A stretch of DNA of 24,291 nucleotides, taken from the IMG/VR virus record IMGVR_UViG_3300044960_000820, positions 1-24,291 of that record. The stretch is one strand, 5' to 3'. A program made the translations under genes and the position numbers. Positions 3,964 to 24,186 of the stretch are shown piece after piece. Source of the stretch: a virus. The notes below the pieces were generated by a model. The model did not search any database and was not told the origin of the DNA. It saw only the letters and a list, made by a program, of their open reading frames with translations. Numbering within the stretch: the stretch's first letter is position 1; each line of letters begins with the position of its first letter.

Positions 3964-3984
3964 TGGATTCTCCTTTGGTCCAAA

Positions 3985-5475
3985 TTACACCTGGGCTTTA
4001 AACGCGCCACGATAATCGCCGATCATCGCGCCGTACTCGTGACGGATCTTCCATTGGAGCTTGTCCGCGACGAACATCTGTCCGACGGTGGGCTGATCGG
4101 CGAGGAACATCTCCGGCTCTTCCTGGCCGTTGATGAAGCCGACGATCATGATATCGACTTCGTTCGGATCACGGAAAAGGCCCCAGTCGTTGACGTCGGT
4201 GAGCAGCGGATTCACCAAGATGCGTTCGTTGTTCGCGCCGAATATCTGATACATGTCGTTGGGCGTGAAATTGGCGTCGAGGTACTCCGCTTGATTGACC
4301 TTATATGCCGTCGCGCGCAGCTCCTGGGGCACGACCAGCAAGAGATTTTGCATCGAGCGATCGCTCAAGCCCAGGCGCTCATTAGAGCTGAGCTCGGTCA
4401 TCTTGGCGAGAACATCGACCGCGGACGAGAGACTGGCCGCCGACAGGGCGGTCGCTCCCAAATTGCCGTGACCTACGGTGAACCAAGCCGTGCCATCGCC
4501 GGTATAGGTCGCGTTGCTCACCCAGAAATTCCAAATATAGCGGGCGAAGGTGCGGCGCGCCGCGCGGCCCCAACCCTGCACTCGACGGGTCAAGCCGCGC
4601 AGATCGTCATTCATGATCGCCTTCCGCGTGATGGTCAGGAGATTGCCCTTTTGGAGCGGCGTGAAGCTGATCTTTTCTTCGCCCGGCTTGGTCGCCTCGA
4701 CGTAATCGGCGGTCTCTGGATCGACGGTCGAGAGATCGCCGAAATAGCCGACCCGCTCCGCTTCCTGGAGCTTAAAATTCTCCAGCGTCAGAATTGGCGG
4801 CGAAATAATCCTGCGCTCCCCGTACTCCGCCGCGGCATAGTCTTGCAAGAGGCGGCGATTCATCGAGGTGCCCAGCAAACTGGGGAAGTCGGCGGCGATA
4901 ATCGCTTCCTGCGATCGCAGCCTTTCGCGCGCAATGTAGCCGCGCACTTCGGAATCGCCCGTCACCGCGACATAGGCTTGGCGCAGCGAACGAAAAACCA
5001 GCCCGGGATCCCCCTCGGCCTTGACGCCGAGCATGCGGTCCATCGCGATCTGATGCTTATCGACTGCTTCCTGTCCGACTTCGACGCGCGTATCGCCGGC
5101 GCCGAGCACCAGGCCGCTGCGAGCCAATTGATCGAGCGTCTCTTGCTCGAGCGCCACCGCCTCATCCAACGCTTCGCGCGCGAACACTTTGCCGCCGAAC
5201 TGCTTTTCGATTTTCTTTTTGACCGGCTCCGGCAGCCGGATCTCGGCCAGTTTGCGCGTCAGATAAGCCTCGCATGAATCTTTGATCATCTGGTCGCGCA
5301 ATGCGCGGATTTCCTGCGCTTCCTGAGCGCTAAGGGTGCGCGCCGAGCTCGCATCGGATAGCGCCTCGGACAAGGCTTCGGCGGCGCGCTCGATGGTCGG
5401 ATGATCGCCCAACCGCGCGATCAGATCGTCGCGCTTGCATCGCTTGAGCAGCGCGAGAATGTCTTCTACTTTCAT
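3985..5475 (-). other. Possible nested scaffold-capsid product from an internal start
   Basis: Inside the protease-capsid fusion, codon 281 is an ATG at 5475. It is preceded by AAAGGAG at 5484-5490 with 8 bases of spacing, a better ribosome site than the one at the full-length start. Initiation here would give 496 aa with scaffold and capsid but no protease, which could raise the capsid-to-protease ratio. Nested starts of this kind are known for lambda C/Nu3 and Mu I/Z. This is an inference from the sequence; the site might also be fortuitous. Confidence 0.5.
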
Positions 5476-6315: not shown

Positions 6316-6542
6316 TTTTTCACCTCGCCGGTGAGATCGACAGCCGACAGCTTCGCTTCCGGCTGGTCGCCGGCGGAATAGGTCAGTTTTTTCCCGCCGC
6401 GCGTCACGATGACAATCTGCTTGAGCCCCTCGATCCAGCGTCGGTGAAAAATATGCTCGGGCTTGATGCCGTAGGCCTCCATCGCCATCGCCAGCAAATC
6501 CTTTTCGCCGGTCGCGCCAGCCTCATCTTTTTCTTTCGCCAT
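6312..6542 (-). CDS. Small hypothetical protein before the capsid gene
   Basis: This 76-aa protein starts at ATG 6542, which follows a strong AAGGAGAGGAGA ribosome site; the longer frame back to 6743 lies inside the preceding gene. An acidic-basic N-terminus (MAKEKDEAGATGEKD) leads into a helix, then IKPEHIFHRRWIEGLKQIVIV, a basic GGKK turn and a C-terminal lysine pair. Its TGA overlaps the capsid fusion ATG in an ATGA junction. I do not recognise a family. Its place between the F-like gene and the capsid gene suggests a small head-assembly protein. Confidence 0.7.
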   Translation of the reverse strand: MAKEKDEAGATGEKDLLAMAMEAYGIKPEHIFHRRWIEGLKQIVIVTRGGKKLTYSAGDQPEAKLSAVDLTGEVKK

Positions 6543-6558
6543 TCTCCTCTCCTTTTTT

Positions 6559-7431
6559 TTATGCTGCGAGATCGAGATTCCACTCCTTTTTGTACGGTAT
6601 CGATTGGCAGCCGCAATTGATCGTCTGGCAGGCCAAGCCGCTGGGATCGCGCGGAAATAGCAATCGATCCTCCGGACAGCGGCCCGCGCCGGGAATGTCG
6701 TAGGGCTTATCCACGTCGCGCACTTGCCCGTGGATCGCGGCATGTTGGCGGCGACTTACTCCCGACCAGAGCCATTGCTTTTGCAAGCCGGGCACGATCG
6801 TCTTGGCGTCCTCCAGTCGCGCCTGCGCGGCCATCGACTGTACGCGGCCCGCCTCCGTGCGCAGGATCGTCTCGGCGCGATTTTGCAGCGAGCCGAACTG
6901 AAGCGGATCATCTATCTGTCGTTCGATTTTCTTGATCGCTTCGAACGGCGACTGCACGCCGGTCACCGCCAGGCTCACCTCCCGGGTGATTTTGGCGATC
7001 GTGTCCTCGGTCACATATTGAATCAGGCTCGCGTTGAAGCGTTGGGCGATCTGGAACACCGAGAGCGAGCTTGCCGGCAGCTGCATTTCTATGCCGACTG
7101 ATTGAAGAGGCGCATCGACCGAGGCCTGGCCGAGCGCGGCATAGTCGCGGAAGATGCCGCGAGATTCCGCGAGATATCGATCGCGAAAATCGCTCATCGC
7201 CCGCTCAATGTCGGCGGACAAAGAAGGCAGGCGATAGGCCTCGTAGTCGCGCGCCGAGGCCAATCGGGTCGCGATCTCGCGGCGCAGATCGCGCGTCAAA
7301 AATGTTACGCGATCGTGCGCCTGCTCGTCCAACAGCTTAGCTTCATCGAGGAACCGGCGCGTCGCCTCCAGCGGCGTGCGCGCGTTCATCATATCTACAA
7401 ACGGCCGATCGGCCTCTACCGCTCTAAGCAT
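6559..7431 (-). CDS. Mu F-like head morphogenesis (minor head) protein
   Basis: This 290-aa protein matches the phage Mu F / SPP1 gp7 head morphogenesis type, which associates with the portal and inner capsid. Typical elements are a long helical N-terminal half; AETILRTEAGRVQSMAAQ near residue 185; WLWSGVSRRQHAAIHGQ near residue 220, with its S-R-x-x-H-A-x-x-x-G-Q pattern; and a cysteine-rich end (CQTINCGCQS) near 270. The gene overlaps the portal stop by 8 bases and is followed by the capsid genes, as in Mu-like phages. The ATG at 7431 has only a weak ribosome site, so coupling to the portal gene is likely. Confidence 0.85.
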   Translation of the reverse strand: MLRAVEADRPFVDMMNARTPLEATRRFLDEAKLLDEQAHDRVTFLTRDLRREIATRLASARDYEAYRLPSLSADIERAMSDFRDRYLAESRGIFRDYAALGQASVDAPLQSVGIEMQLPASSLSVFQIAQRFNASLIQYVTEDTIAKITREVSLAVTGVQSPFEAIKKIERQIDDPLQFGSLQNRAETILRTEAGRVQSMAAQARLEDAKTIVPGLQKQWLWSGVSRRQHAAIHGQVRDVDKPYDIPGAGRCPEDRLLFPRDPSGLACQTINCGCQSIPYKKEWNLDLAA

Positions 7432-8830
7432 AGCTTTTGCGCGCCGGACGCGCCTCTTGGGCGTAATCGGCGGTTATTTGTTCCGTGCCATCGGACATCG
7501 AGATGTCCGCCGGCTCGATCTCCATGCCGAGAGTGGCGGCGATATTGGCGAAAACGTTCGCCGCCGTCTCGCGCGTGATCCATCGTTGCGTCTGAGCGAT
7601 CATCAATGAGGTCGTAATTTGCGACAGCGCCGTGCCGAGCTTGACCATATCCTTGGGCGACATTTCGGGTGCGATGATCTTGAAAGCATCGACCGCCGCG
7701 ATCATTTCGCCGTCGCGTTTGCGCACCTGTCGTTTGACGTGGCCGGCGGCAATCTTGGTCCTGATCTGGTAGCGAATAATCTGCCGCAGCATATCCTTCA
7801 CTATCAGCTGCGCCATACCGAGGCTCTTGAGCGCCGCCGGATCCATCTCCTGGGCGCTCGCTCGATTGACATCCGATCCCTCAGCAAACCAGGTCGGCGG
7901 CAGCCCGTGCGCCGCCAGAATGTGATTTTTGATCAGCCGCGCGTCCGCGGTCGCGTCGTCGGCGCTCATGTTCGGCGCCACCGCCTTGCGCTCGACCATT
8001 TCGTTGTGGATAAACTCCATGCCGCGCTTCGGCGGCGGCATATTCTTTTTACGCTCTTCGATCTGCTCCTGGGTCAAGCCCTTCATCGTCGTATCCCAGA
8101 TAAAGGAATTGACCAGCGAGCGCATATCTATGCGATCGAAAATAAACTGCTCGTAGCCGTCGAGTGAGTCCGAGGTCGCGAGCAGCTCCGAACGGCCGCG
8201 CGCGGCGTTGCTTACATTGTTAACGGCGAAATAGAAGCAGTCGCCGTCGCCGAAGGTTTCGCGCAGTCTCGCGGCGGCGGGGCTGAAAATGTTTTCGTCT
8301 GTGTCGTGGATGATTCTGTAGCGTTTGCCCCGCTTGCCGCCGCGCGATTTGAGCACGACGCCGATGCGAACCTCGCAGTTCTCCGGATCGGTGATGACCT
8401 CTTTGATCGACGCCGGATCGACATAGCCGAGCCGCACATCGCCGGCGAACTCGGAGACAAAAGCCGGATAGCATTGCTCGCCCAGGCCGAAGAGCTGGCG
8501 AATTTTTTGCGGCAGCTTTTGCTCGAGCTGGTTCACCGGATCGTACCAAAATTTTTGAATGATCCTATCGATTTCATCGTTATCGGCGACCCAGCCAATC
8601 CCCTCGCCGGACAAAAAATCGCGATACTTGGCTATGATCGCGCGGGCCATCGGATTGGTCTCCATCAGCCAGTATGCGATCTCGATCATGCGTTCCTGGC
8701 TGAGCGGCGTGAGATCCCGTTCCGAGGCCGTCAGCGGACGAAAGCCCTCTCCCGGATCGCGCAATGTTCCCCCCGGCGGGATCGCCGCCTCGCGAGCGAA
8801 CAGCGAACGGACTTTATCGATCACCTTCAC
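7424..8830 (-). CDS. Portal protein
   Basis: This 468-aa protein has the signature of portal proteins, the dodecameric ring at one capsid vertex that admits the DNA. Visible elements are YWLMETNPMARAIIAKYRDFLSG near residue 52, a glycine-basic hairpin (SRGGKRGKR) near 160, an acidic FGDGDCFYFAVNNVSN stretch near 190, and the helical HGLPPTWFAEG-SDVNRASAQEM segment near 315. The length is usual. The start is GTG at 8830, without a clear ribosome site and 5 bases after the upstream stop; a second GTG at 8824 is possible. It precedes the F-like gene and follows terminase, in standard order. Confidence 0.88.
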   Translation of the reverse strand: MKVIDKVRSLFAREAAIPPGGTLRDPGEGFRPLTASERDLTPLSQERMIEIAYWLMETNPMARAIIAKYRDFLSGEGIGWVADNDEIDRIIQKFWYDPVNQLEQKLPQKIRQLFGLGEQCYPAFVSEFAGDVRLGYVDPASIKEVITDPENCEVRIGVVLKSRGGKRGKRYRIIHDTDENIFSPAAARLRETFGDGDCFYFAVNNVSNAARGRSELLATSDSLDGYEQFIFDRIDMRSLVNSFIWDTTMKGLTQEQIEERKKNMPPPKRGMEFIHNEMVERKAVAPNMSADDATADARLIKNHILAAHGLPPTWFAEGSDVNRASAQEMDPAALKSLGMAQLIVKDMLRQIIRYQIRTKIAAGHVKRQVRKRDGEMIAAVDAFKIIAPEMSPKDMVKLGTALSQITTSLMIAQTQRWITRETAANVFANIAATLGMEIEPADISMSDGTEQITADYAQEARPARKSYA

Positions 8831-8834
8831 CTTA

Positions 8835-9065
8835 TTATATATCTCCGAATCCCATCGCCGCCCGGGCTTTTAAGGATTGACGCTCCATACGCTCGGCGAG
8901 CGTCGGTCGAGCGCGCCGACGCCGCAGCAGAGTCGCATATTCGACATAGGCCCGGCGCAAGAAGTCCCGCTTGCACTGGACCCCGCAAAACCTTTGTGTC
9001 CTACCGTTCGACCGCCGAAGATATTCGCGACCGCAGAAATCGCATTGGCTTGTCTGAGATTCCAT
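8835..9065 (-). CDS. Small zinc-finger protein
   Basis: This 76-aa protein has CDFCG and FCGVQC, giving a C-x2-C plus C-x3-C arrangement that should bind one zinc. This FCS-like finger (C-x-x-C-G-...-R-F-C-x-x-x-C) is common at the start of phage and mobile-element proteins. A basic, helical tail rich in arginine follows, which would suit nucleic acid binding. I chose ATG at 9065, after GGGGGT; the longer frame to 9095 would start at TTG. It sits between terminase and portal. It could help DNA packaging or regulation, as small Mu Com-like zinc proteins do, but that is a guess. Confidence 0.68.
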   Translation of the reverse strand: MESQTSQCDFCGREYLRRSNGRTQRFCGVQCKRDFLRRAYVEYATLLRRRRARPTLAERMERQSLKARAAMGFGDI

Positions 9066-9098
9066 TAGGACCCCCCGAATTTCGCACAGAATCAAATG

Positions 9099-10559
9099 CT
9101 ACGTTTGAATCTCCACCCCGACCATGCCCAACCTATGCCGCGAGCCCGATCGCGTTTTTAATCGAAATATGGCCGGCTGTCGCTCAATCGCCACCTCGCC
9201 GACGGCCGCTGCCGGCCCGCCGGCCGCCATCTCGGCCAGAGCGGCAGCCCAGAAGTAATCGGCGTGACCGGTCTCGTCGCTGCGCTCGGCGTCGAAACGG
9301 AAATGGCCGGTCGCCGTCGCATAGCGCTTGACCGAATGGATCGAGTTGCGGATCTTGGTCTCGGCCGGCAGCACCCGGCGATGGTCGTCGAGCGATTGCT
9401 TGAATTTGCCGGCCAGCGCTTCTTTGTTCGCGCTGGTAAAATCAATAGGCTCGACCTTCCACGCGCCAAATTTGGTTTGCGCGGTCTCGGCGAGCTGCAT
9501 GCCGAGGCCGCTCTGATCGATGCAAGCCCGACGGAGCCGCGGCAGACCGAGAATCGCATGCAGAACCAGGCGCTGCATGAAAAAGGGCGCGCGCGAGAGC
9601 GATATCACCGCCTGCGGCTTCACGACGCGTCCGATTCGCTCATCGAGCCAGAATACGGTCAGATCGCGACGCCGGCCGATGTCCACGCCGAGATACAGCT
9701 CGCCGCCGAATTCGATGCCGGCGAAAATATCCTCGCAGTCGATATCGATTTCAATCTTGGTCTCGCGATAGCGGTCGAAGGCGGCTTGGGCGCGCGCCAG
9801 CAACGATTCGGCCCACGGCGGCATGATCTCCACCTCCGGGTCCTCGCAAGCGGTAATCAGATCGAAGCCGATGTAAGCGGTCGCCTCATCTATATATTTA
9901 ACGAGATATTCCTGCTCGGCGCCCTCCTGGTCGTCCATCGCGGCTATCAGGGCCTCCGGCGAGATGGCGTTCCCCTCCTCGTCCTTCAATTCCAGGCCCT
10001 GGGCGACCGCCTGAAAAATATCCAGAGCGTGGTGATCGAACTTTTCGTTGGCCTCCAGTTCATAAAATTTGTTCTGCTTGCCATTGGGCGTCGAATAAAC
10101 GCGTATTTTGTAGCCGCGCGTGATAGTGGGAAACAGCGCCGTCCAAATCGCTCGGCTGTCCTGGTGAAATGCAAATTCATCGAGCAACACGTTCGCCGAT
10201 GTGCCGCGCGCGGTGTCGGGGTTGGCCGGCAAGCCGTAAATCGCGGAGCCGTTGGGGAAATGGAGTTCGAGCATTTTATATTTTCGCTCGTTGTCGCCTT
10301 CGAAAACCCCTTCGATCTCTTCCGCCGCCATGCCGTAAGCCATCGCGTGCTTTTTGGCCTCTGCTATTAGTCTTTTGGATTGCCGTTCGCCGCGCGATAG
10401 AAAGAGCCATTCGGTCTTGCGCGAATAGCAATCATCCACCGCCTCGAGCGTTGCGATAAAGCTCTTCCCCGTCTGCCGCGCCCAACGCCGATGCTTGAAG
10501 CGCGCCTTTTTCGCCATTTCGGCCTTTTGATATTCGGTGAGCTTAATCGCCGGCTGCAT
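9099..10559 (-). CDS. Terminase large subunit (Mu gp28-like)
   Basis: This 486-aa DNA-packaging motor has both expected parts. The ATPase domain has RRWARQTGKS as Walker A (residues 24-33), VLLDEFAF as Walker B (near 124-131) and VYSTPNG as the coupling motif (154-160). The nuclease domain has an RNase H-like acidic set: YLGVDIG (Asp293), ACIDQSG (Asp348) and HADYFWAAAL (Asp434). Cleavage of concatemeric or host-joined DNA during headful packaging is its known role; in transposable phages it cuts integrated copies. ATG at 10559 overlaps the small terminase by 17 bases. All key residues are present, so it should be functional. Confidence 0.93.
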   Translation of the reverse strand: MQPAIKLTEYQKAEMAKKARFKHRRWARQTGKSFIATLEAVDDCYSRKTEWLFLSRGERQSKRLIAEAKKHAMAYGMAAEEIEGVFEGDNERKYKMLELHFPNGSAIYGLPANPDTARGTSANVLLDEFAFHQDSRAIWTALFPTITRGYKIRVYSTPNGKQNKFYELEANEKFDHHALDIFQAVAQGLELKDEEGNAISPEALIAAMDDQEGAEQEYLVKYIDEATAYIGFDLITACEDPEVEIMPPWAESLLARAQAAFDRYRETKIEIDIDCEDIFAGIEFGGELYLGVDIGRRRDLTVFWLDERIGRVVKPQAVISLSRAPFFMQRLVLHAILGLPRLRRACIDQSGLGMQLAETAQTKFGAWKVEPIDFTSANKEALAGKFKQSLDDHRRVLPAETKIRNSIHSVKRYATATGHFRFDAERSDETGHADYFWAAALAEMAAGGPAAAVGEVAIERQPAIFRLKTRSGSRHRLGMVGVEIQT

Positions 10560-11166
10560 CGATTATGCCGTACACTTCCTCGCGTATTTTCTTCAGCGTC
10601 GCCGCATCGAGGCCCTTTTTCCGGCCGATCTCTTCGATCGCCTTGGCGGCGCCGGCCGCTTTTTGCTGCGCCGCCTCGATCGCCGCCTCTTTCATCTGCA
10701 GCGCCCGCTCCAGCAGGGCGATTTTTTCCCGATCGTTGCGCGTCCGTTCCTGCAATATCCGATTGCGCTCGCGTTGCACGTCGATGCGCTTTTCCGCCGC
10801 CGCCAAATAACCCAGCTCGATCGGATCGCTCTCGTCGAAGCGCTTGGCTGCCAGCAGCTGAGCGACCGTGAGCCTTTGCTTCACCAGCTCCTCCACGTCG
10901 GTCGTCGGACTGTTTTTCAACGCGGCGAGCATGCCGTCCGCCTCTTTGCGCGCCTCGATGAACGGTCGCTCCACCGCGAGCCAATACTCGCGATAGCGAT
11001 AGATCGCGTTGTCGTCGATCCGCTCGCCGGTTTTTTCGGCGACTTCATCGCAAATCGACTGCACCGAGCGGACCCCCGGCCCCTCGACGAACGCCCGCTC
11101 GATGATTTCGCGCGCCGCGCGCGACAATCGCGCGATCGCGGGAAATGTTTTGCGCCTGACTTTCAC
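10543..11166 (-). CDS. Terminase small subunit (Mu gp27-like, DUF3486 type)
   Basis: This 207-aa protein resembles Mu gp27. It has an N-terminal DNA-recognition region with helix-turn-helix character (SRAAREIIERAFVEG, then VRSVQSICDEVAEKTGERIDDNAIYRY), then a long helical, charged coiled-coil region over residues 95-190. It would recognise phage DNA ends and hand them to the large subunit, whose gene overlaps it by 17 bases. The start codon is GTG at 11166 with GAGG about 8 bases upstream. The order small terminase, large terminase, portal, F is the Mu arrangement. Confidence 0.85.
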   Translation of the reverse strand: MKVRRKTFPAIARLSRAAREIIERAFVEGPGVRSVQSICDEVAEKTGERIDDNAIYRYREYWLAVERPFIEARKEADGMLAALKNSPTTDVEELVKQRLTVAQLLAAKRFDESDPIELGYLAAAEKRIDVQRERNRILQERTRNDREKIALLERALQMKEAAIEAAQQKAAGAAKAIEEIGRKKGLDAATLKKIREEVYGIIDAAGD

Positions 11167-11182
11167 CTCTCACGCCTCGTCC

Positions 11183-11515
11183 TCATTCGATATGCACCCC
11201 CGCATCCCGGATATTGCCCTCTAAGAGATCGGTGCCGGCGGCCGTGATGCGCCACATGAGCGACTCGGTTTTGCCGACGCGGACGCGTTTTTGCTTGACG
11301 TACTCCTTGTCGAGCAAATAGTAGAGATTGCCGCGCAACATCTCGCGCGTTTGCGGATATCGCCGGCCGACCTTCAAATAGAGCAGGTCTTCGTCGAGGT
11401 AGGTCTCGATCGACTCTCTATCGCCGCGTTCGCGCTCGATGGCGGCCTGAAGGACCTCCAGGATCATTCCGCGCGTGGCGAACTTTTCCTCCCTATCGTC
11501 TCTGATCCTAGCCAT
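11183..11515 (-). CDS. Winged-helix-like protein upstream of terminase
   Basis: This 110-aa protein looks like a small winged helix-turn-helix. Helices span residues 15-30 and 55-70; then comes a recognition-type stretch (REMLRGNLYYLLDKEYVKQ) and a wing (VRVGKTESLMWRITAAGTDLLEG). Similar proteins with a closing G-x-D-L-L-E-G are familiar just upstream of small terminase genes in Mu-like phages. Whether they act in packaging or transcription is not known to me. ATG at 11515 overlaps the preceding stop by 8 bases. DNA binding is inferred from fold only. Confidence 0.72.
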   Translation of the reverse strand: MARIRDDREEKFATRGMILEVLQAAIERERGDRESIETYLDEDLLYLKVGRRYPQTREMLRGNLYYLLDKEYVKQKRVRVGKTESLMWRITAAGTDLLEGNIRDAGVHIE

Positions 11516-11876
11516 GTTTCATCTCGTCGAGCCGAGCGTGCAGTCTCTCGACCGATCGATGGAGCATTTCTTGACCGATCAGGATTTCCTCAAACTTCAT
11601 CTGGTCCTTCTGCGGCAGATTCTTCACCGCATCGGCCAATGTCGTCAGCGCAACGGCCTGGCGGGTCTGCGCAAGCAAAAAGCGCGGCAGGAAATAGATC
11701 GCCGCGCCCAGGATGACGAAAGCAACGAAAAAATCCGATCCCTGCTCGCGTATGAGCTGTTGCACCCACGGCGGCACCTCGGCGAGCGTGTGAATCGCGC
11801 CGAAGGCGCCGATCGTCGCGCCGATCGCTGCCGCCGGCGTCGTCCATTTTTTTGCGTGCCCGTTCTCCTCGTTCAA
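11508..11876 (-). CDS. Membrane protein with C-terminal coiled coil (DUF2730/Mu gp25-like candidate)
   Basis: This 122-aa protein has two hydrophobic segments, AAAIGATIGAFGAIHTLA (residues 15-32) and FFVAFVILGAAIYFLPRFLLA (49-69). A charged helical tail over residues 85-120 suits a coiled coil. Mu-like phages encode a one- or two-pass membrane protein of this size before the winged-helix and terminase genes. Start is TTG at 11876, overlapping the previous TGA (TTGA junction), with GGGG 6 bases upstream; no better start exists. A holin or spanin-like role is possible but unproven. Confidence 0.65.
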   Translation of the reverse strand: MNEENGHAKKWTTPAAAIGATIGAFGAIHTLAEVPPWVQQLIREQGSDFFVAFVILGAAIYFLPRFLLAQTRQAVALTTLADAVKNLPQKDQMKFEEILIGQEMLHRSVERLHARLDEMKHG

Positions 11877-12457
11877 AAAATCCCCTTTTTGTCCGGCGCC
11901 GATTCGGCAATTTTCTGGAGCAAATACTTGAGCGCGGCTTCTAGATCGTCCAGGCGCTTGCTCATCTCGCTCGTCGCTCCGTGCTCAATCTTCACGGCGC
12001 CAAGCTCGGAGACTTCGATCTTCGATCCGGGCTCGTTGCTGCGACAGATCGTGATGCTGCCGTAGCCGCCGCCGCCCGGAACGAGCGGCACGCCCGCACC
12101 TGGCGCGATCGTCATTGCGCCGCCGCCGCCGCCGGCGCGCAAGCACGCCGACGCGCGGTCCCGCGAGAGGGCGACCAGCGCATCTTTAATGTCGGATGAG
12201 AACATCGGCGAGCAGCCGAGCAGAGGAAAAAACAAAAATAAGACTAGCAGTTTTTTATCCGGTGGGTCCCAACGCCAAAAAAAATGCACCAGCAAGCCGC
12301 CCACGACCGCGCCCACAAGCACGCCGAAAAATGGCCAGGCATCGAAGATGGTCGCCATCGCCGCGGATAAGGTTTCCTCGCCGCTGGTCAGGGCATAACA
12401 CTCATAGAGGAGCAGTCCGACGATTGCGCTAAGCCATGCGAGCTTGCCTTTTGTCAT
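11873..12457 (-). CDS. Multi-pass membrane protein with internal lipobox and glycine-rich region
   Basis: This 194-aa protein starts at ATG 12457 in an ATGA overlap with the previous gene. Hydrophobic segments lie at residues 8-24, 42-60 and 68-82. The third, KKLLVLFLFFPLLGC, reads exactly like a lipoprotein signal with Cys82 as the acylated residue. Then follow a glycine-rich stretch (residues 108-133), a cysteine-containing ITICRS, and a helical coiled-coil end. It may be a fusion of a two-pass membrane protein with a lipoprotein, or two overlapping products. A lysis role (holin/spanin) fits the position but is inference. Confidence 0.6.
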   Translation of the reverse strand: MTKGKLAWLSAIVGLLLYECYALTSGEETLSAAMATIFDAWPFFGVLVGAVVGGLLVHFFWRWDPPDKKLLVLFLFFPLLGCSPMFSSDIKDALVALSRDRASACLRAGGGGGAMTIAPGAGVPLVPGGGGYGSITICRSNEPGSKIEVSELGAVKIEHGATSEMSKRLDDLEAALKYLLQKIAESAPDKKGIF

Positions 12458-12864
12458 TCGACGAACTCCCATTCCACCTCGCGCAGTCCCCACTCCTCTG
12501 GCCGAAAACCTAGGGCCTCGATCACGGCGTCGGAAAGATCGATGCCTGCGCCGTTGATGGGGTATTTTTTGGCGTCGCCCTCGCGCACTTGTCCGCGCAT
12601 CGTTTCCGCGCGCGGTCGTGCGCCGCCGAAAACATAAGCCTCATCGTCTGGATAGCTGCGGAACGGAAACCACGGTCCGAGATCGAGCACCGGGCAAATA
12701 ACGCTGCGCGCGGAGGTCGCGGTCGGCCTTCGCACTACCCTCACCGTGCGCCAGAGCGCGCGGCGCGCCGGCAGCGCGACGAACAGAGAATCCTCTCTGA
12801 TCGTGAGCCCGGCGGCCGTCAGGCCGCCGATCAGTCCCTCGCGCGAGGCGACGACCGTGATCAT
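12454..12864 (-). CDS. Double-psi beta-barrel-like protein (RlpA/3D type), possible lysis protein
   Basis: This 136-aa protein shows features I associate with small double-psi beta-barrel (RlpA/3D-like) phage proteins: an opening ITVVASREGLIGGLTAAG, FVALPARRALWRTVRVVR (residues 29-46), DLGPWFP near residue 63, and NGAGIDLSDAVIEALGF near 106. Such barrels occur in peptidoglycan-active enzymes. It is the first gene of the late operon. The start is ATG at 12864, only five bases after the T-run of the leader terminator, with no clear ribosome site (a TTG lies two codons upstream). No lysozyme or transglycosylase is otherwise visible, so this could be the lysis enzyme. Confidence 0.55.
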   Translation of the reverse strand: MITVVASREGLIGGLTAAGLTIREDSLFVALPARRALWRTVRVVRRPTATSARSVICPVLDLGPWFPFRSYPDDEAYVFGGARPRAETMRGQVREGDAKKYPINGAGIDLSDAVIEALGFRPEEWGLREVEWEFVE

Positions 12865-12868
12865 GCGC

Positions 12869-12930
12869 AAAAAAAGGCTCTATCGCCGCGCGCTCAGAAG
12901 ACGCCACTCTCCGCGCGCAAGCGATGAGCC
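12869..12930 (-). terminator. Intrinsic terminator in the late operon leader
   Basis: Read on the minus strand, arm 12930-12926 (GGCTC) pairs with 12880-12876 (GAGCC); the stem continues with 5 bp (12125 side: 12125 is not involved; positions 12121-12125 plus 800, that is 12921-12925, with 12882-12886) and 6 bp (12913-12918 with 12888-12893), around a 19-base loop. Seven T residues (12875-12869) follow at once. That is a textbook rho-independent terminator of 16 paired bases. It lies five bases before the first late start codon, so no promoter fits between. All late transcription must cross it. Confidence 0.75.
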
Positions 12931-12940
12931 GTTTGTTTCT

Positions 12941-12969
12941 ATTATAGCGCTCGCACGCGAAAAGCGAAA
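12941..12969 (-). promoter_or_regulatory. Candidate late promoter, TATAAT with poor -35
   Basis: On the minus strand a perfect TATAAT lies at 12946-12941. At 17 bases upstream the sequence is TTTCGC, a poor -35 match, so an activator may be needed, as for Mu middle and late promoters. TTTCGC and TTTTCGC lie close together there as a short direct repeat that could be a binding site. RNA would start near 12934, four bases before the terminator hairpin. Confidence 0.5.
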
Positions 12970-12983
12970 TACCAATCGATTAC

Positions 12984-13012
12984 TTGCTATCGGAGCTAAG
13001 CGCGCTTATAAT
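12984..13012 (+). promoter_or_regulatory. Strong sigma-70 promoter for the small RHH-like gene
   Basis: TTGCTA at 12984-12989 and TATAAT at 13007-13012 are separated by exactly 17 bases. The predicted start near 13019 falls at the ribosome site GGAGG (13020-13024) of the gene at 13037, giving a very short leader. It diverges from the candidate late promoter at 12941. Confidence 0.75.
12997..13008. promoter_or_regulatory. 12-bp perfect palindrome over the -10 box, candidate operator
   Basis: TAAGCGCGCTTA is a perfect palindrome that covers the end of the spacer and the first two bases of the TATAAT. Binding here would block the rightward promoter. A ribbon-helix-helix protein, as encoded just downstream, typically binds such short palindromes and represses itself. 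Confidence 0.45.
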
Positions 13013-13036
13013 GCTTCGCGGAGGATGAATAAAAAA

Positions 13037-13234
13037 ATGGCGAATAAGAAAATCTTGTTGCGCAACGTTCCGCCGGCGCTCCATGATGCCGCGAAGACAA
13101 TTGCGGCCCATCTCGGCATCTCGCTCGAACGTCTCATTCTCGAGGCCGTCCATGCCCATTGCCTGCGCATCGCGCACGAGCGGAACATCACCGAGCACGT
13201 AATATCTCAAATAGAAAAGGGACGACCTAGATAG
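13037..13234 (+). CDS. Small Arc/FitA-like ribbon-helix-helix protein candidate
   Basis: This 65-aa protein starts at ATG 13037 and is the only plus-strand gene among the leftward block. A basic MANKK opening is followed by ILLRNVP (the predicted DNA-contacting strand), PALHDAAKTIAAHLGISLERLILEAV (two helices with a GIS turn) and a C-terminal helix. That strand-helix-helix order matches Arc/MetJ-type antitoxins and regulators such as FitA. An ATG at 13025 sits directly against GGAGG, so 13037, 12 bases away, is preferred. No toxin gene is adjacent in the same direction, so a regulator is more likely than an antitoxin. Its stop is 2 bases from a convergent gene. Confidence 0.65.
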   Translation: MANKKILLRNVPPALHDAAKTIAAHLGISLERLILEAVHAHCLRIAHERNITEHVISQIEKGRPR

Positions 13235-13236
13235 GC

Positions 13237-13662
13237 CTAGATGGAGCGCAGGGCGTTAATCAAACACGCGATCTCGTTGGGTATTAGACATGCGCGCCGC
13301 GATTTGCGTGTTTCGTGACCCAGGCGACGCAGGTTGTGGAAGCCGATCCAGAGACGTCCGGGGACGCGCCCCTCGCGCTTTTCGTCCTCGGGGTGGATGT
13401 CGGGATGGAATTCAAGCAGGCAATCGACAGCAGTCTTGTAGCTCCGCGGCTGCCGGGTTTTGACGGAATCGTCGATCGTCGCGATGAAATCATCGATTTC
13501 ATCGTCGGCTAGAACGCTGGAGACGTAATGGTAGCCGCTGGCCGATCCGGCGGACGGCCAGCGGAAGATCAACCAAATTTTCTGCGGCCGCTTGCGATCC
13601 CGATATAGCCGAAGCTCCCCGAGATGCGCGAGCGGGATGACCACGTCGGATTCGCGAATCAT
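13237..13662 (-). CDS. Hypothetical protein ending the accessory operon
   Basis: This 141-aa protein has no family I recognise. The N-terminal half looks beta-rich (VVIPLAHLGELRLYRD, KIWLIFRWPSAG, YHYVSSVLA). An acidic helix follows (DDEIDDFIATIDD), then a C-terminal half with GRLWIGFHNLRRLGHETRK and a conserved-looking cysteine pair near the end. ATG at 13662 overlaps the upstream TGA (ATGA junction). It ends 2 bases from the convergent small regulator gene, so read-through transcripts of this operon would be antisense to that gene. Confidence 0.65.
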   Translation of the reverse strand: MIRESDVVIPLAHLGELRLYRDRKRPQKIWLIFRWPSAGSASGYHYVSSVLADDEIDDFIATIDDSVKTRQPRSYKTAVDCLLEFHPDIHPEDEKREGRVPGRLWIGFHNLRRLGHETRKSRRACLIPNEIACLINALRSI

Positions 13663-14057
13663 CGGCGCATTTGGGCTCGGCGCATTTGGGCTCGAAAGGC
13701 GCGATGTTCGTCGGTCTCCTCATCGCGCAGCTCTTTGGCCACTCGCGAAATAGTCTCCCAATTACGCTCGATCACGAGCGTGGCAGTGACCGACTCCCAC
13801 TCGCCAGCGTGGATCGGGACGAACTCTTCGTCTCCGCTCGCATTGCAATAGAGGGCATCGACCATGTTGAGGTACGCATAGCGCGCGACCGGAGGAATCA
13901 TCCGCTCAATATCCGGTCTCTCCGGAAAATTGATTTCCCCGGCGGGAGAAATGCAGCCGGCGCCAATCTCGAGCAGATCGGATACATCCTGCGCCTGCTC
14001 GGCGCTCGCCGAAGCGAGCGCTTTGCCCAGTTCCTGGGCCGCCTCTTTGATCGTCAT
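13659..14057 (-). CDS. Hypothetical acidic protein of the accessory operon
   Basis: This 132-aa protein begins MTIKEAAQELGKALASASAEQAQDV. It carries mostly helices, an SPAGEINFPERPDIERMIPP segment, and a C-terminal charged helix ending in a duplicated AQMRR. I chose ATG at 14057, preceded by AAAGGAG. An alternative in-frame ATG at 14174 has an even better GGAGGTG site inside the end of the vWA gene. It would add 39 residues translated from the hairpin region at 14069-14159, which does not look like protein-selected sequence. Function unknown; it is co-transcribed with the MoxR-vWA pair. Confidence 0.6.
   Translation of the reverse strand: MTIKEAAQELGKALASASAEQAQDVSDLLEIGAGCISPAGEINFPERPDIERMIPPVARYAYLNMVDALYCNASGDEEFVPIHAGEWESVTATLVIERNWETISRVAKELRDEETDEHRAFRAQMRRAQMRR
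13664..13693. repeat. 15-bp perfect tandem duplication
   Basis: The unit GGCGCATTTGGGCTC occurs twice head to tail at 13664-13678 and 13679-13693. It lies at the end of the upstream gene and doubles its last five residues (AQMRR), two bases before the next start codon at 13662. It looks like a recent slippage duplication. Confidence 0.9.
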
Positions 14058-14068
14058 AGAAAACTCCT

Positions 14069-14159
14069 TTCCCCCGTCGCGGGGGAATATCTCGATGGCG
14101 AGGGTCTGCCTCGTCAGCGGCGGGAGACCATTCCCGCCGGACCGGGGAAAAGCCCCGGT
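14069..14159. repeat. Cluster of three hairpins before an operon gene
   Basis: Three perfect inverted repeats follow one another: 14069-14076 with 14080-14087 (8 bp, loop TCG), 14119-14125 with 14132-14138 (7 bp), and 14141-14147 with 14153-14159 (7 bp, loop AAAAG). The last could act as a weak terminator. The first lies directly against the ribosome site of the gene at 14057. The region resembles the leader at 16781-16822 and may be a dispersed palindromic element. Confidence 0.75.
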
Positions 14160-14175
14160 TTCGGCTAATGTCATT

Positions 14176-15354
14176 TCACACCTCCATTTTAATCGTCTCG
14201 CCCCAGGGCGCGACCCGGTCGGTAGTCGATACCCAGAGCACTGGCGTTTCGGGCGCGCGATCGGGGAATGTCCCCTCCAGGTCGGTCAAATAGATCACGC
14301 ACGCTGGCATGAGACCCTCGCGATCGAGGCGCTTGAACACGGGGCGGAAATCAGTGCCGCCGCCGCCGCGCGGGGAAAGCGTGATGTCATCGCCGCGCTG
14401 GAATTCGTCCACGCGCTGGACCGCAGCATCGCAATAGATCACGTACAGCGCCTCCGGCGCGCAATCGTCCATGATCGCGGCGATCTCCGCGCCGAAGGCG
14501 TCGAGCTCGATTTGACCGATCGAGCCGCTCGTGTCGATCGCAACCACGAGCGGGGGCGTGGTCTCGGAGCGCAGCGCGGGGAGATAGAGCCCGCTCGGCA
14601 CAAAACGCGGATTGGGCATCTTCCATGAGTAATCCGCCGCTTGCTGAACGAAGCGGCGTAGCGCCGTACGCCAATCGACGTGCGATTTCTTGAGCTGGTC
14701 GACAAGTCGCTCTAGGGAGGCGGGAAGCTTCCCCTGCTGCTTCGCCTGTGCGGCGGCCTGTAAAGTGGCCACGCGCCATTCCTCTTCCTGCGCGGGGTCG
14801 TCGGGATCGGCATCTCGGACCTCTCCGCAGGCTGGCTCAGGGGCGCTCTCTCCGGATTCGCCCCCACCCTTGCTGTCACCCTCTTCGCCGCCAGCGCCGC
14901 TCTCCGCGCCGCCGCCGGCTCCGTCGCCGTCGCCTTGCTCTTGTTTCTGATCCTTTGAAGGCGGCGGCTCATAGAGTGTCGAGTAGATCTGCTCGACGGC
15001 GCGGCCAGGCTCTGCGTCCGTGAGTGTGCCAGGTGGGAGAGAAAATCCCGCCTCGGCGACGATCGATGAAACGCACATCTCGGACGCGCGAGACCACCGC
15101 TTGAGATCGCGTCCATCGCGACGCCAAGGGTGTCCGTTTGCTACTTGCATGATTTTGACCGCGAGCAGCGCCTCGACTTCGTCAAGCGAGAGCTGCTCAA
15201 CGGCGCTTGGATTGTATCCGAGGCGTCGGCCATCCACCCAAGCGGTCTTGCAGCTTGGATCGGCGACGGGATCGAGGCGAAGGGCGAGCGTCCCAAAAAA
15301 CGGCTGCTCAAGCACGAGATTAACTCGCGCTTGGACGATTTTCTTATGCTCCAT
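14176..15354 (-). CDS. vWA-domain protein (DUF2201-like), MoxR partner
   Basis: This 392-aa protein pairs with the AAA+ ATPase encoded just upstream. Residues 1-130 resemble the N-terminal part of DUF2201 (putative metallopeptidase) proteins, with GHPWRRDGRDLKRWSRA near residue 74 and AEAGFSLPPG near 100. The HExxH zinc motif usual there is not visible (KIMQVANGH instead). Residues 131-190 are an acidic, glycine-rich linker. Residues 195-392 form a vWA-like domain with a complete MIDAS: DTSGS (Asp274, Ser276, Ser278), Thr334 in GGGGTDF and Asp358 in YLTDLEG. It binds a metal and a protein partner. The start at 15354 has GGGAGG and overlaps the ATPase gene by 11 bases. Confidence 0.8.
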   Translation of the reverse strand: MEHKKIVQARVNLVLEQPFFGTLALRLDPVADPSCKTAWVDGRRLGYNPSAVEQLSLDEVEALLAVKIMQVANGHPWRRDGRDLKRWSRASEMCVSSIVAEAGFSLPPGTLTDAEPGRAVEQIYSTLYEPPPSKDQKQEQGDGDGAGGGAESGAGGEEGDSKGGGESGESAPEPACGEVRDADPDDPAQEEEWRVATLQAAAQAKQQGKLPASLERLVDQLKKSHVDWRTALRRFVQQAADYSWKMPNPRFVPSGLYLPALRSETTPPLVVAIDTSGSIGQIELDAFGAEIAAIMDDCAPEALYVIYCDAAVQRVDEFQRGDDITLSPRGGGGTDFRPVFKRLDREGLMPACVIYLTDLEGTFPDRAPETPVLWVSTTDRVAPWGETIKMEV

Positions 15355-16381
15355 CGTCCACCTCCCCGCTGATAAGCTTGCCGATGTCGCTACTCAGGAG
15401 CTGGAGGAAGGGTGGCGAATGAATCAGTTTCGCGTTACGCCGCACGGCGTCGCGGAGGAGCAGCACGGCAAATTCCCCGCGCCCCGCATCGTTGAGGCGC
15501 ATCGCATACTTCGCGACGCGAGCGAAGTTCGCCTCCGTCGCGCGCGCGGCCAGACCCGTTGCGACCGCGTAGAGAGCTGCTGGCTGAGAGGGGAGCGGCG
15601 CGGAGTCGGGATCGAGCAGAATCGCGTCAAGAGACGGTAGCTCTCGATAGATTTGGAGGAAGGCGACGAACTCCGCCGCCGGGCCGTCGCCGACCGCGCC
15701 CTGGAGCGCGGCAAGCTCGATCGCAGGGGATAGTTTGAGCGCGATGATCTTCCCCGCCGCCGCCCAGGTGCGCGGGCAGGGGGAATTGACAAGATCTGCG
15801 GTGGGATTGAATTGGTGCAGCAGCTCGGGCCGAAAACGGACAAACGCAACGAGCTCGGCGGGTTGATTGGTGCGCAAAGCCCAGTTGCACCAATCGTCCA
15901 GATTCGCCTCGACATGGACAATCGAGACGAACCGCGACTTCACCGACTCCAGGATACCGGAGACGCCGGCGCGATCGGTGCGCCGATTGGTCGCCGCCAC
16001 GAAGGTCACGCACTCCGGGAGCGCATGACCGTTGACGCGGCGCGCGAGCAGGAGCTGCATATAGCTCGCCTGCACGGCGGGGGTCGCCTGGCCCAGGTCG
16101 TCGAGAAACCAGACGGTCGGTTGCTCCGCGTGCAGCGCACGCGAGAGATCACCGAATGGGAGAAAGGTGGCGCTTTCGCCATCCTTCCCGACCCACGGCA
16201 GTCCCTTCGCATCGGTCGGGTCGCTCACGACCGGATGCGAGACGATAAGATCCGCGCCCGAGGCCTGGGCGGCCTGGGCGACGAGATCGGACTTGCCGAC
16301 GCCCGGCGCTCCGACGAGGAGCACCGGGAGGCGGGCATTGATGGTAGACGTGAGCAGCGTCGAGACATCACGCGGCCTCAT
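15344..16381 (-). CDS. MoxR-type AAA+ ATPase
   Basis: This 345-aa protein is an AAA+ ATPase of the MoxR/AAA_5 kind, chaperone-like remodelling enzymes usually paired with vWA proteins. GAPGVGKS (residues 24-31) is Walker A, VWFLDDL (90-96) is Walker B, TFVAATNR (126-133) is sensor 1, and SVKSRF (146-151) probably holds the arginine finger. The C-terminal third is helical. ATG at 16381 has a perfect AGGAGG site, so the longer frame to 16429 is not needed. It overlaps both neighbours by 11-14 bases. The ATPase should act on whatever its vWA partner binds. No substrate is evident. Confidence 0.85.
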   Translation of the reverse strand: MRPRDVSTLLTSTINARLPVLLVGAPGVGKSDLVAQAAQASGADLIVSHPVVSDPTDAKGLPWVGKDGESATFLPFGDLSRALHAEQPTVWFLDDLGQATPAVQASYMQLLLARRVNGHALPECVTFVAATNRRTDRAGVSGILESVKSRFVSIVHVEANLDDWCNWALRTNQPAELVAFVRFRPELLHQFNPTADLVNSPCPRTWAAAGKIIALKLSPAIELAALQGAVGDGPAAEFVAFLQIYRELPSLDAILLDPDSAPLPSQPAALYAVATGLAARATEANFARVAKYAMRLNDAGRGEFAVLLLRDAVRRNAKLIHSPPFLQLLSSDIGKLISGEVDDGA

Positions 16382-16769
16382 CACGCACCTCCTGGCGGAT
16401 CTTTTCCGCCATGCGGTCGAGCCGCGCATGGGTCAGCTCGAGCGCAGGGTCGAGCCGCTCGACGGCAGCGATCACGTCGATGAGGCGAGGGAGCACATCT
16501 CGGTGCTTCTCCAGCGCGCGGAGTGCGCGCCGGACTCCCGCTTCACTCACGCCGTACAGGCGCGCGACATGCGGGAGAGTACGGCAGTGGACCATGAGGG
16601 AGAACGGCCATGCGGCGGAGGGTCTCCTGATGCGCGAGCAGCAATCCTGCCGCTCGCGGTCGGAAGGATAGAATCTTTTTTTCTTGTCGAAGTCGCCGTC
16701 CGGATGGCGGCTTCGGCTTTGGCGCGCGAGGTATTCGCGCGCGGCGTCAATCTCTCTCTGGATCTGCAT
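16368..16769 (-). CDS. Helix-turn-helix-like protein starting the MoxR-vWA operon
   Basis: This 133-aa protein is mostly helical and basic. LPHVARLYGVSEAGVRRALRA near residue 75 has the helix-turn-helix pattern (A-x-x-x-G-V-S then a second helix), so DNA binding is plausible. The C-terminal part, DVIAAVERLDPALELTHARLD, is a long helix. ATG at 16769 follows AAAGGAG; an upstream in-frame ATG at 16835 would add 22 residues read through a hairpin region. It is the first gene downstream of the leftward promoter at 16845-16873, and its end overlaps the ATPase start. Possibly an operon regulator. Confidence 0.65.
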   Translation of the reverse strand: MQIQREIDAAREYLARQSRSRHPDGDFDKKKRFYPSDRERQDCCSRIRRPSAAWPFSLMVHCRTLPHVARLYGVSEAGVRRALRALEKHRDVLPRLIDVIAAVERLDPALELTHARLDRMAEKIRQEVRDEAA

Positions 16770-16780
16770 AGTAACTCCTT

Positions 16781-16822
16781 TCCCCCTTCGCGGGGATCGC
16801 CCGTCCGCGTGCCGGGACGGGC
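16781..16822. repeat. Hairpin pair in the accessory operon leader
   Basis: Two inverted repeats lie between promoter and first gene: 16781-16785 with 16792-16796 (5 bp, ending against the ribosome site), and 16799-16806 with 16815-16822 (8 bp perfect). The layout matches the hairpin cluster at 14069-14159, including the same AAAGGAGTT ribosome site just beyond it. Confidence 0.7.
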
Positions 16823-16844
16823 TGTTCCGTGACATTTCGATATC

Positions 16845-16873
16845 ATTATTATCATGCTTACACGCTTTGTCAA
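16845..16873 (-). promoter_or_regulatory. Strong leftward promoter of the accessory operon
   Basis: On the minus strand TTGACA is at 16873-16868 and AATAAT at 16850-16845, with 17 bases between (11 of 12 consensus positions). RNA would begin near 16838 and carry a leader of about 70 bases with the two hairpins. It drives the HTH, MoxR, vWA and following genes. It lies downstream of the repressor genes, so the operon can be expressed independently. Confidence 0.75.
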
Positions 16874-16921
16874 TACCCCGATAATATTTTTTTATGCCGT
16901 AGAATTTGCTTATAAAATCAG

Positions 16922-17041
16922 CTAGATAGGGCGCCACAGTAGCGGCGATTCCGGCGCGCCGCGATCGTCGGCGATTTTCGCCGGAATGGCGGCGAGGAGT
17001 GCAGCGCCGACGAAAATCAAACACCAAAATAAAGTTTCCAT
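16922..17041 (-). CDS. 39-aa single-pass membrane peptide
   Basis: ATG at 17041 has GGAGG with 9 bases of spacing; the frame ends in TAG at 16922. The peptide starts METLFWCLIFVGAALLAAIP, a hydrophobic helix, followed by a short polar tail with PESPLLWRPI. It is read in the same direction as the repressor gene and the membrane protein at 17074. A typical phage membrane microprotein; possible roles are superinfection exclusion or regulation, but nothing in the sequence decides. Confidence 0.6.
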   Translation of the reverse strand: METLFWCLIFVGAALLAAIPAKIADDRGAPESPLLWRPI

Positions 17042-17073
17042 GATGAATGTCCTCCTTCGCTACCATATTATTA

Positions 17074-17439
17074 TTATCGCCGATCGCCGCCGTAGATTTT
17101 ATCCAGGCGGCGCCAGGCCCGATCATCCTTGAGCCATGCTGGCAACGCGCCGCCGTTGCGTTCCTTGATCTCGTTTTCCAGCGCGATAAATCGATTGCGA
17201 ATATCGCCGCCTCGTCTTCGATGCGGCGCGAGCAATTTGTTCAGCTCGTTTCCATCTCTCACGAATAGCGCGCGAGACAGCGCCTTTTCATAGTCCGCGT
17301 CCATCCGATAATAGTTCGAGAGAATCTCGCTCATCTCCGCCAGTGCGCGTTGGCGATAGAGTCTTTCTTCGCGCTCCCGATGCAGCCAGGCGCCGACAAT
17401 GGCGAGAGACAGAGAGATAATGATGATCAGAGTTTTCAT
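17074..17439 (-). CDS. Membrane-anchored helical protein next to the repressor
   Basis: This 121-aa protein has one N-terminal membrane helix (TLIIIISLSLAIVGAWL, residues 3-19). A long charged helical region with many arginines and glutamates follows, ending in ALPAWLKDDRAWRRLDKIYGG. ATG at 17439 overlaps the repressor TGA (ATGA junction), so it is expressed with the repressor and probably in the lysogen. Membrane proteins encoded next to repressors often alter the host in lysogeny, for example by superinfection exclusion. The bulk of the protein would be outside or inside depending on orientation, which I cannot settle. No known family. Confidence 0.65.
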   Translation of the reverse strand: MKTLIIIISLSLAIVGAWLHREREERLYRQRALAEMSEILSNYYRMDADYEKALSRALFVRDGNELNKLLAPHRRRGGDIRNRFIALENEIKERNGGALPAWLKDDRAWRRLDKIYGGDRR

Positions 17440-17858
17440 CGCGATTCTCCTTTTTTGTTTTCTTCGCGCACAATACGACGAAAAATCACGACGCTTTTCA
17501 GCAGCGCATCTATTATGTCATCCGGCGCCTCTCGCGCGAGCTCCTTGATTAAATGCACGAGCTTGAGCCTGTCGGACTTTCCGTAATTCTCCGGAGCCTC
17601 GGCTACTTCTAAAATTATTTTTCCTTCGGCGCTGCCGGTAACGAGCCAATCGATGGTCTGGCCGAAAATCGCCGCGAGAGAGGCTGCAATCGACAATGAT
17701 AGGCCTTGGCCAGACTCTAGTTTGTTGACTGCGCTCTTGTCGGAGTATCCGAGCATCATCGACAGATCCTCCTGCGTCCAGCCTCGCCGTTGCCTCTCCG
17801 AGCGAATCCTCGATCCGATCTCACATAGGTCGAGGTGGCTAATTTTTCTACTTGACAC
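17436..17858 (-). CDS. XRE-family repressor (lysogeny regulator)
   Basis: This 140-aa protein has a clear HTH_3 domain: EIGSRIRSERQRRGWTQEDLS, then MLGYSDKSAVNKLESGQ and SLSIAASLAAIFGQTIDWL (residues 13-71). A helical C-terminal part is suited to dimerisation. It probably holds down the rightward early genes, as the Mu c and lambda-type repressors do. The start is a GTG at 17858 and no ribosome site is visible, so initiation may be weak. Its first codons overlap the -35 of the early promoter (17852-17857), so the two transcripts begin against each other. It is divergent from the Cro/Ner-like gene, as in a classical switch. Confidence 0.8.
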   Translation of the reverse strand: MSSRKISHLDLCEIGSRIRSERQRRGWTQEDLSMMLGYSDKSAVNKLESGQGLSLSIAASLAAIFGQTIDWLVTGSAEGKIILEVAEAPENYGKSDRLKLVHLIKELAREAPDDIIDALLKSVVIFRRIVREENKKGESR

Positions 17859-23402: not shown

Positions 23403-23752
23403 TGGACGATCGAGAAATGAGCGCGCTCGAAAAATCGATCTGGGAATTTTTGCGCCAGCACTTCGCCGGCATCGAGCGAGCGACGCCGCGCGTCACGATT
23501 CTCGCGCGATATAATTTGATCGCTCACTCCCAGATCGGCGATCGCGATTTTCGTGACATCGTCTCTCGGCTGGTAACTGTGTATAAAAAGCCGATCTGCA
23601 CGACTCCCCATCGCGGTTATTACGTCGCACGGACGGAGCGGGAAAAAACCGAGGCGCTCAATTATCTCGATTCGATACTGAGCGAGATCGCAGACCGTCG
23701 TCGCGCTCTCGCCGATACCGATCCGCTCGAGCGCCAGGAGAGCTTGTTTTGA
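23402..23752 (+). CDS. Winged-helix-like early protein with C-terminal clamp-type motif
   Basis: This 116-aa protein has helices at residues 5-20 and 45-60, with RDFRDIVSRLVTVYKKPICTTPHRGYYVA fitting a helix followed by a wing. Similar small proteins stand between Gam and GemA in Mu-like phages. The last five residues, QESLF, match the beta-clamp binding pattern Q-x-x-L-F, so it may contact the host DNA polymerase clamp. Its start overlaps the Gam stop as TAATG with a weak ribosome site. DNA binding is inferred from the fold only. Confidence 0.6.
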   Translation: MDDREMSALEKSIWEFLRQHFAGIERATPRVTILARYNLIAHSQIGDRDFRDIVSRLVTVYKKPICTTPHRGYYVARTEREKTEALNYLDSILSEIADRRRALADTDPLERQESLF

Positions 23753-24186
23753 TCTCGCGGCAAAAAATTAAACTCTTGCATCTGGCGAAACGAGAGCTTG
23801 GGTGGAGCGATGATCTATATCGCCAGGTGTTGCGCGATCATGGCGGCGTGGCATCATCGCTCGATTTGGATGATGAAGGATTCCGCCGGGTAATCGATCA
23901 TGCGAAGGCATTGGGATTTTGGGTTCAACGCAGACGAAAACTGGAGACGTTTCGGGACGCCTCCGATCTGCCAACCGTTGCTCAGCTTAAAATAATCGAG
24001 CACCTCCGTCATGATCTATGCGTTTATGTGCCGGGCCTGCGCCACGCCAATTTTTGGCGCGGATTCCTGGTCAAGCGTCTCGGCGTGCCTGCGCTTGGTC
24101 CTCAGACGCGTGCTCAAGCCAATCGCGTGATCGAAGCGCTTAAGCAACGCTTGGGTCGCGCTATGCGCGCGCAGTCGCACATCTAG
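23749..24186 (+). CDS. gemA: GemA / Mu gp16-like regulator (DUF1018 type)
   Basis: This 145-aa protein resembles Mu gp16/GemA. It has an N-terminal helix with Q-x-x-KLLHLAKRELGWSDDLYRQVL near residue 6, SSLDLDDEGFRRVIDHAKALGF in the middle, and FWRGFLVKRLGVPALGPQTR near 105. The family affects host gene expression and DNA supercoiling in Mu. The start is TTG at 23749, overlapping the previous stop, with AGGAG at the right distance, so this TTG is credible. It follows Gam and the winged-helix gene, in Mu-like order. Confidence 0.82.
   Translation: MISRQKIKLLHLAKRELGWSDDLYRQVLRDHGGVASSLDLDDEGFRRVIDHAKALGFWVQRRRKLETFRDASDLPTVAQLKIIEHLRHDLCVYVPGLRHANFWRGFLVKRLGVPALGPQTRAQANRVIEALKQRLGRAMRAQSHI

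Follow-up and report, generated by a model that had tools for sequence, protein, structure and literature searches.

The window analysed here is a 24,291-base virus fragment (GC 60%) that, judged by its gene content and order, is a fragment of a B3-like transposable phage: it encodes Mu-type transposase and B proteins, GemA and a Mu-type terminase, and its late genes diverge from the early genes. The rightward early genes include those for the transposase, the B protein, Gam and GemA, the leftward late genes include the terminase subunits, and the interval between the two sets holds leftward genes for a repressor-like protein, a MoxR-type ATPase and a VWA protein. The MoxR-type ATPase and VWA (DUF2201) pair (14176-16429, minus strand) is in an unusual cargo position between the repressor and the late genes. 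A type II hammerhead ribozyme with the expected core (14166-14100, minus strand; RF02276, 54.9 bits, gathering cut-off 37, E 1e-8) is placed after the stop codon of the VWA gene and before the leftward gene that follows, some 1.2 kb upstream of the late leader. The record stops 105 bp past GemA, and a lipoprotein-like ORF (signal peptide with LLEAC) begins right after GemA (24192-24291, plus strand) and is cut by the record end. The features that concern us are:

12454..12864, minus strand: first late gene (late-1), 136 aa, no family match
12864-12862, minus strand: ATG of late-1, four bases (GCGC) after the T-run
12869..12875, minus strand: seven-T run after the hairpin
12876..12930, minus strand: putative terminator hairpin, 55 nt, about 16-22 bp, one bulged A
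12941..12946, minus strand: perfect −10 TATAAT without a −35; predicted RNA start about 12934
12974..12981, no strand: perfect 8-bp palindrome AATCGATT, centre 12977.5, a candidate activator site
12984..13012, plus strand: predicted promoter of the ribbon-helix-helix gene, TTGCTA-N17-TATAAT
13025..13234, plus strand: small divergent ribbon-helix-helix gene (start 13025 or 13037), FitA/HicB-like (below the Pfam cut-off)
13237..17858, minus strand: repressor-side genes (repressor-like HTH, MoxR-type ATPase, VWA protein, others)
23749..24186, plus strand: GemA homolog, last of the early genes

The product of late-1 had no match in PDB, Pfam or PHROG, and its structure model was discarded as too poor (mean pLDDT 33).

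Read along the minus strand from 12946 to 12862, the late leader consists of TATAAT, ten bases, the 55-nt hairpin, TTTTTTT, GCGC and the ATG, which confirms each position that a preliminary description of this DNA had assigned to the hairpin, T-run, start codon and TATAAT. The 16-bp stem described there is the sum of the pairs GGCTC/GAGCC, ATCGC/GCGAT and GCGCGC/GCGCGC; the minimum-energy fold extends these by an upper stem and contains one bulged A. The RNA from 12934 to 12869 has a folding energy of −34.7 kcal/mol (z −3.7), which 0 of 200 shuffles matched, and the hairpin itself (12930-12876) one of −33.3 kcal/mol, a strength reached by 4 of 3000 shuffles of the upstream sequence in front of a fixed T-run. 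A GC-rich stem with a T-run directly after it has the form of an intrinsic (Rho-independent) terminator. On the minus strand of the window this is the strongest hairpin leading into a T-run and, under a stricter filter that admits well-paired single hairpins, the sole site below −30 kcal/mol on either strand. A simple terminator scan with a loop limit of 8 nt failed to call the site, probably because a bulge and a mismatch break the long stem and because of that limit.

TATAAT occurs just five times in the window, both strands together. The copy at 12946-12941 ends 10 nt before the hairpin, its best −35 (TTCGCT) matches three of six positions, and the start predicted from it (12934) lies 4 nt upstream of the stem. 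A transcript terminated at the T-run would be about 66 nt long and nearly all structured, so the short RNA of about 65 bases envisaged earlier is possible. The earlier statement that no promoter fits after the terminator also stands: in the window, no −10-like hexamer (A at position 2, T at position 6, at least 4/6 matches) is so placed that RNA would begin between hairpin and ATG. Upstream, the palindrome AATCGATT is centred at −43.5 relative to the predicted late start and at about −41.5 relative to that predicted for the divergent gene, and its arms do not match a Mor-type element. The promoter of the ribbon-helix-helix gene contains a perfect 12-bp palindrome, TAAGCGCGCTTA (12997-13008), a possible operator.

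A near-identical relative, contig L002/L009, matches the window at 99.9% over 2546 to 13227 and not beyond, a span that takes in the late operon with its leader and almost the whole divergent ribbon-helix-helix gene. Its leader is identical to that of the window, so it is uninformative on selection of the stem and shows only what is co-inherited; the co-inherited neighbour of the window leader is the ribbon-helix-helix protein. In L002, the DNA past the ribbon-helix-helix gene (3-512, minus strand) is swapped for a segment that encodes an ORF containing CxxC. The relatives that do inform on selection are a pair of prophage copies in a single metagenome-assembled genome (MAG, G001), C21 (L111) and C6 (L112), which we located by searching with late-region DNA and whose late-1 proteins are 65-66% identical to that of the window (58-60% by BLAST, with gaps counted). 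In both, a strong hairpin leads into TTTTTTATTTTGCG-ATG. The C21 hairpin has a perfect 13-bp stem (−27.1 kcal/mol, z −6.1) and the C6 hairpin folds at −20.7 kcal/mol (z −2.9); shuffles as good number 5 and 24 per 3000, compared with 4 for the window. Thus all three known orthologous late-1 leaders carry a hairpin and T6-7 at 4-8 nt from the ATG. The C21 and C6 stems share no evident sequence with that of the window. Unrelated stems at the same place in orthologs indicate that the position of the terminator is kept while its letters are replaced, so of the conservation proposed as a check in the preliminary description, terminator position held in three of three leaders and stem sequence did not. 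Because the nearest two relatives keep a stop signal there despite different letters, it is probably a real control switch and not a chance hairpin. On fold energy, shuffles and these orthologous leaders, we regard the hairpin and T-run as very probably a real, selected terminator directly before the late operon, as first proposed. Further relatives were scarce: with the transposase as query, a genome scan gave one relative, viral scans with the transposase or late-1 gave none or the twin contig only, and searches of the order, class and phylum around the MAG added none.

The genes flanking the C21 and C6 leaders are 85-95% identical, whereas from GemA to the last bases of the hairpin, an interval comprising the leader and a Com-like gene, the two have no detectable DNA match, as expected if a regulator and its target had been exchanged together. 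In each, the terminator directly follows the early genes GemA and the Com-like ORF on the same strand. The C21 promoter, TTGACA-N16-TATTAT, ends 71 nt before the hairpin and would start RNA at −65 relative to it; the C6 leader has TTGACA with a weak −10. By the same hexamer rule, neither contains a −10 that would give a start between hairpin and ATG, other sigma factors being possible. The 20 nt before the late-1 ATG contain no Shine–Dalgarno-like sequence in the window, C21 or C6.

What we observe is the structure itself, the geometry of the promoter, and hairpins of unrelated sequence at the same place in the orthologs. The reading we favour, with a probability of about one half, is that the late leader holds a regulated terminator, built like lambda pR'-tR', which a dedicated factor overrides and which also insulates the late operon. 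RNA initiated from TATAAT (about 12934), or coming in from the repressor-side genes on the minus strand (13237..17858), would run into the terminator and stop near 12869, the former leaving a hairpin RNA of about 66 nt; a phage factor would then let RNA polymerase pass and so switch the late genes on, as Q does at lambda pR'-tR'. Efficient termination, its override by a factor and the identity of that factor are what we infer.

In lambda, a promoter, a short leader and an intrinsic terminator precede the lysis and morphogenesis genes. The same order of promoter, short leader and terminator before late genes can be read in the DNA here, with a window promoter that has no −35, and our scan recovered lambda tR' itself (−24.3 kcal/mol, T6, about 170 nt after the TTGAC core). 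Moreover, C21 and C6 have a small gene between the early genes and the leader, placed as Q is. The likeness has limits: no Q homolog was identified, and the window terminator abuts the first late start codon, whereas that of lambda lies several hundred bases before S. The put RNAs of HK022, offered as an analogy in the preliminary description, also act on a terminator near a phage promoter, but put hairpins must be transcribed ahead of the terminator, and the window leader leaves no space for them: its RNA would start with the terminator hairpin itself. The analogy is therefore a poor fit, and lambda pR'-tR' would be the closer comparison. Several findings count against antitermination. The predicted RNA start is 4 nt from the hairpin, so there is no leader for a put-like element; the window does not have the TTGAC promoter seen in C21 and many relatives; and no antiterminator was identified, a scan of the early genes in the window (the record does not reach the early end of the phage) giving no antiterminator match and a search of the window for Com no match.

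A wider survey places the leader among transposable phages. Terminase alignment added 80 viral loci; together with the earlier ones, 80 had enough upstream sequence to survey, and in 28 of these 80 a strong sense terminator precedes the terminase. Many relatives, B3 among them, are without such a terminator. At 0.8-3.6 kb upstream of the terminase we counted 33 sense terminators in 207 kb, compared with 15 on the opposite strand there and 18 sense terminators in 544 kb downstream. Part of the contrast between upstream and downstream reflects avoidance of terminators inside the late operon, because the antisense strand of the downstream late region, a rough neutral reference, holds 55 distinct sites in about 544 kb; measured against that strand, the enrichment is modest. 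Hairpin-plus-T sites in the late regions of the 80 loci are about threefold rarer on the sense than on the antisense strand, as if avoided. Without hand selection, 10 of 26 upstream sense terminators have TTGAC, the −35 core, 75-150 nt before the hairpin (1.4 expected), compared with 10 of 87 control terminators (5.2 expected). In a weaker test on 20 hand-picked leaders, 14 had TTGAC (3.1 expected), mostly at 82-126 nt upstream of the hairpin. From sequence, TTGAC followed by a terminator before the late genes appears in these relatives to be the pR'-tR' arrangement. The hairpins of L012 and L013 were dropped as coding, since the start codon falls inside the hairpin, as was L026, whose terminator precedes a Gam-like gene; in L073 and its kin the terminator stands before the Mor gene. 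A gene-filtered version of the survey was abandoned because spurious GC-rich ORFs masked true sites, the target included.

The main rival is insulation alone, which we consider possible and clearly less probable than a regulated terminator. Here the terminator would block repressor-side (window) or early-operon (C21, C6) transcription from entering the late genes, and late RNA would come from strong or phage-modified initiation leaking through, with no dedicated antitermination. The position of the C21 and C6 terminators right after GemA and the Com-like ORF on the same strand suits this, as does the window, where the minus strand has no stronger terminator separating the repressor-side genes from the late operon. 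However, the window TATAAT and the C21 TTGACA promoter are upstream of the terminator, so an insulator would block the late promoter too, and a promoter just before the terminator recurs among relatives.

The textbook account of late control in Mu-like transposable phages is that Mor and C activate promoters. The preliminary description counted the absence of Mor from the window against such control; this argument fails, because the record ends 105 bp after GemA, and in Pseudomonas phage B3 the gene next after GemA encodes a Mor-like activator. A Mor-domain search of the MAG that holds C21 and C6 gave no match, which would be more telling; the Mor-domain model can miss divergent activators, as in L084 and L089, which are unmatched despite Mor-type dyads. 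With B3-like gene content and order, the window has a late promoter that fits a Mor/C trait, a −10 without a −35, and so resembles the Mor-dependent Pm of Mu (PMC4390567). The leaders of the window, C21 and C6 nevertheless differ from Mu and B3 in having no Mor-type dyad or inverted repeat; at −43.5 the window has no 16-bp Mor/C element with 5-bp inverted repeats, only the central AATCGATT palindrome. Nor did the scan find a strong terminator between mor and lys in Mu, or a comparable strong hairpin and T-run before the B3 late genes.

Four relatives combine both elements. In L084, L087, L089 and L096, a hairpin directly before the late start accompanies the dyad (T/C)TTAA-N6-TTAAA, which resembles the Mor site of Mu Pm (PMC4390567) and which several of these contigs carry three or more times. 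The −10 overlaps the first hairpin bases, the Shine–Dalgarno sequence lies in the 3' arm, and T5-T7 serves as the spacer; the stems differ between phages while the structure is constant. L084 and L089 have the arrangement at two promoters each. The dyad promoters with a predicted start in the hairpin are:

L087, 7039-7071: Mor-type dyad promoter
L096, 6911-6942: Mor-type dyad promoter
L084, about 6211-6248 and 18981 onward: Mor-type dyad promoters
L089, 7496-7533 and 20036 onward: Mor-type dyad promoters

With the start inside the 5' arm, late RNA of these phages would not contain the terminator, which only read-through RNA would form. Hairpins of the T4 lysozyme type likewise form only in read-through transcripts. 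A related dyad, CTTTAA-N6-TTAAA, occurs at spaced late-type promoters in L056, L057 and L062 (three sites each) and at two sites within the available stretch of L059; at the first such promoter, a perfect inverted repeat, CACGCCGCC..GGCGGCGTG, has the −10 in its loop.

A promoter inside the terminator, as fits these four phages (dyad, overlapping −10, Shine–Dalgarno sequence in the 3' arm), is an unlikely account of the window: its one good −10 stops 10 nt short of the hairpin, which puts the predicted start ahead of the whole hairpin, and neither the window nor C21 or C6 has a Mor-type dyad. Somewhat less likely still is a role for the terminated transcript in its own right, as a stable small regulatory RNA of the lysogen; the predicted RNA of about 66 nt is almost wholly structured, but it has no credible Rfam match, and relatives conserve the terminator position alone and not the sequence. 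Least likely is a chance hairpin beside a T-run, for although weak hairpins before T-runs are common in this window of 60% GC, three independent strong hairpins stand at the same place before an orthologous gene.

If a factor overrides the terminator, the neighbouring small genes are candidates. In C6, C21, L024, L031 and L038, a Com-like zinc ribbon is encoded upstream of the leader terminator and ends 89-300 nt from it. Those of L024, L031 and L038 exceed the Pfam cut-off for Com and end 138-300 nt before it, the C6 ORF is sub-threshold and ends 89 nt before it, and the C21 ORF has one CxxC pair only. Those that close the early region and immediately precede the leader terminator, and the C6 ORF, are:

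L031, 6582-6725: Com-like gene
L024, 7245-7397: Com-like gene
L038, 39-194: Com-like gene
L112, around 2834-2634, minus strand: Com-like ORF of C6

No Mor match accompanies the adjacent Com-like genes in L024, L031 and the MAG, whereas all records with Com elsewhere (L012, L057, L087, L096) have Mor. Com of Mu, a translational activator with the motif CC(N)2-3GAG, binds a hairpin adjoining the structure in which the mom start is hidden (PMC6483171). This motif is present in all five leaders with an adjacent Com-like ORF and in 1 of 14 others; its 6 occurrences in the Com-adjacent leaders compare with 3.35 expected, and base composition accounts for much of them. We tentatively raise, as a rather doubtful extension, that one branch of transposable phages has its late switch on RNA and not at a Mor/C promoter, with a small RNA-binding Com-like zinc ribbon from a gene just upstream, or another exchangeable factor in the case of the window, opening the terminator.

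Searches of open-access papers turned up none in which transposable phages control their late genes by antitermination, a weak argument for novelty, and no description of a comparable late-leader terminator in these phages. The preliminary description was right on the structure and on its likely importance: a terminator kept at the late start in relatives in which Mor is not detected suggests that part of the group may use lambda-like polymerase passage. The leaders are short and can be tested in reporters, and the adjacent exchangeable genes are candidate factors. Among the other surveyed leaders, those of L060 (85-320), L066 (7800-8026) and L072 (1290-1520) can be aligned and share TTGAC, TGCCGA in the promoter spacer and a first hairpin, GGCGGATG..CATCCGCC, with the terminator next.
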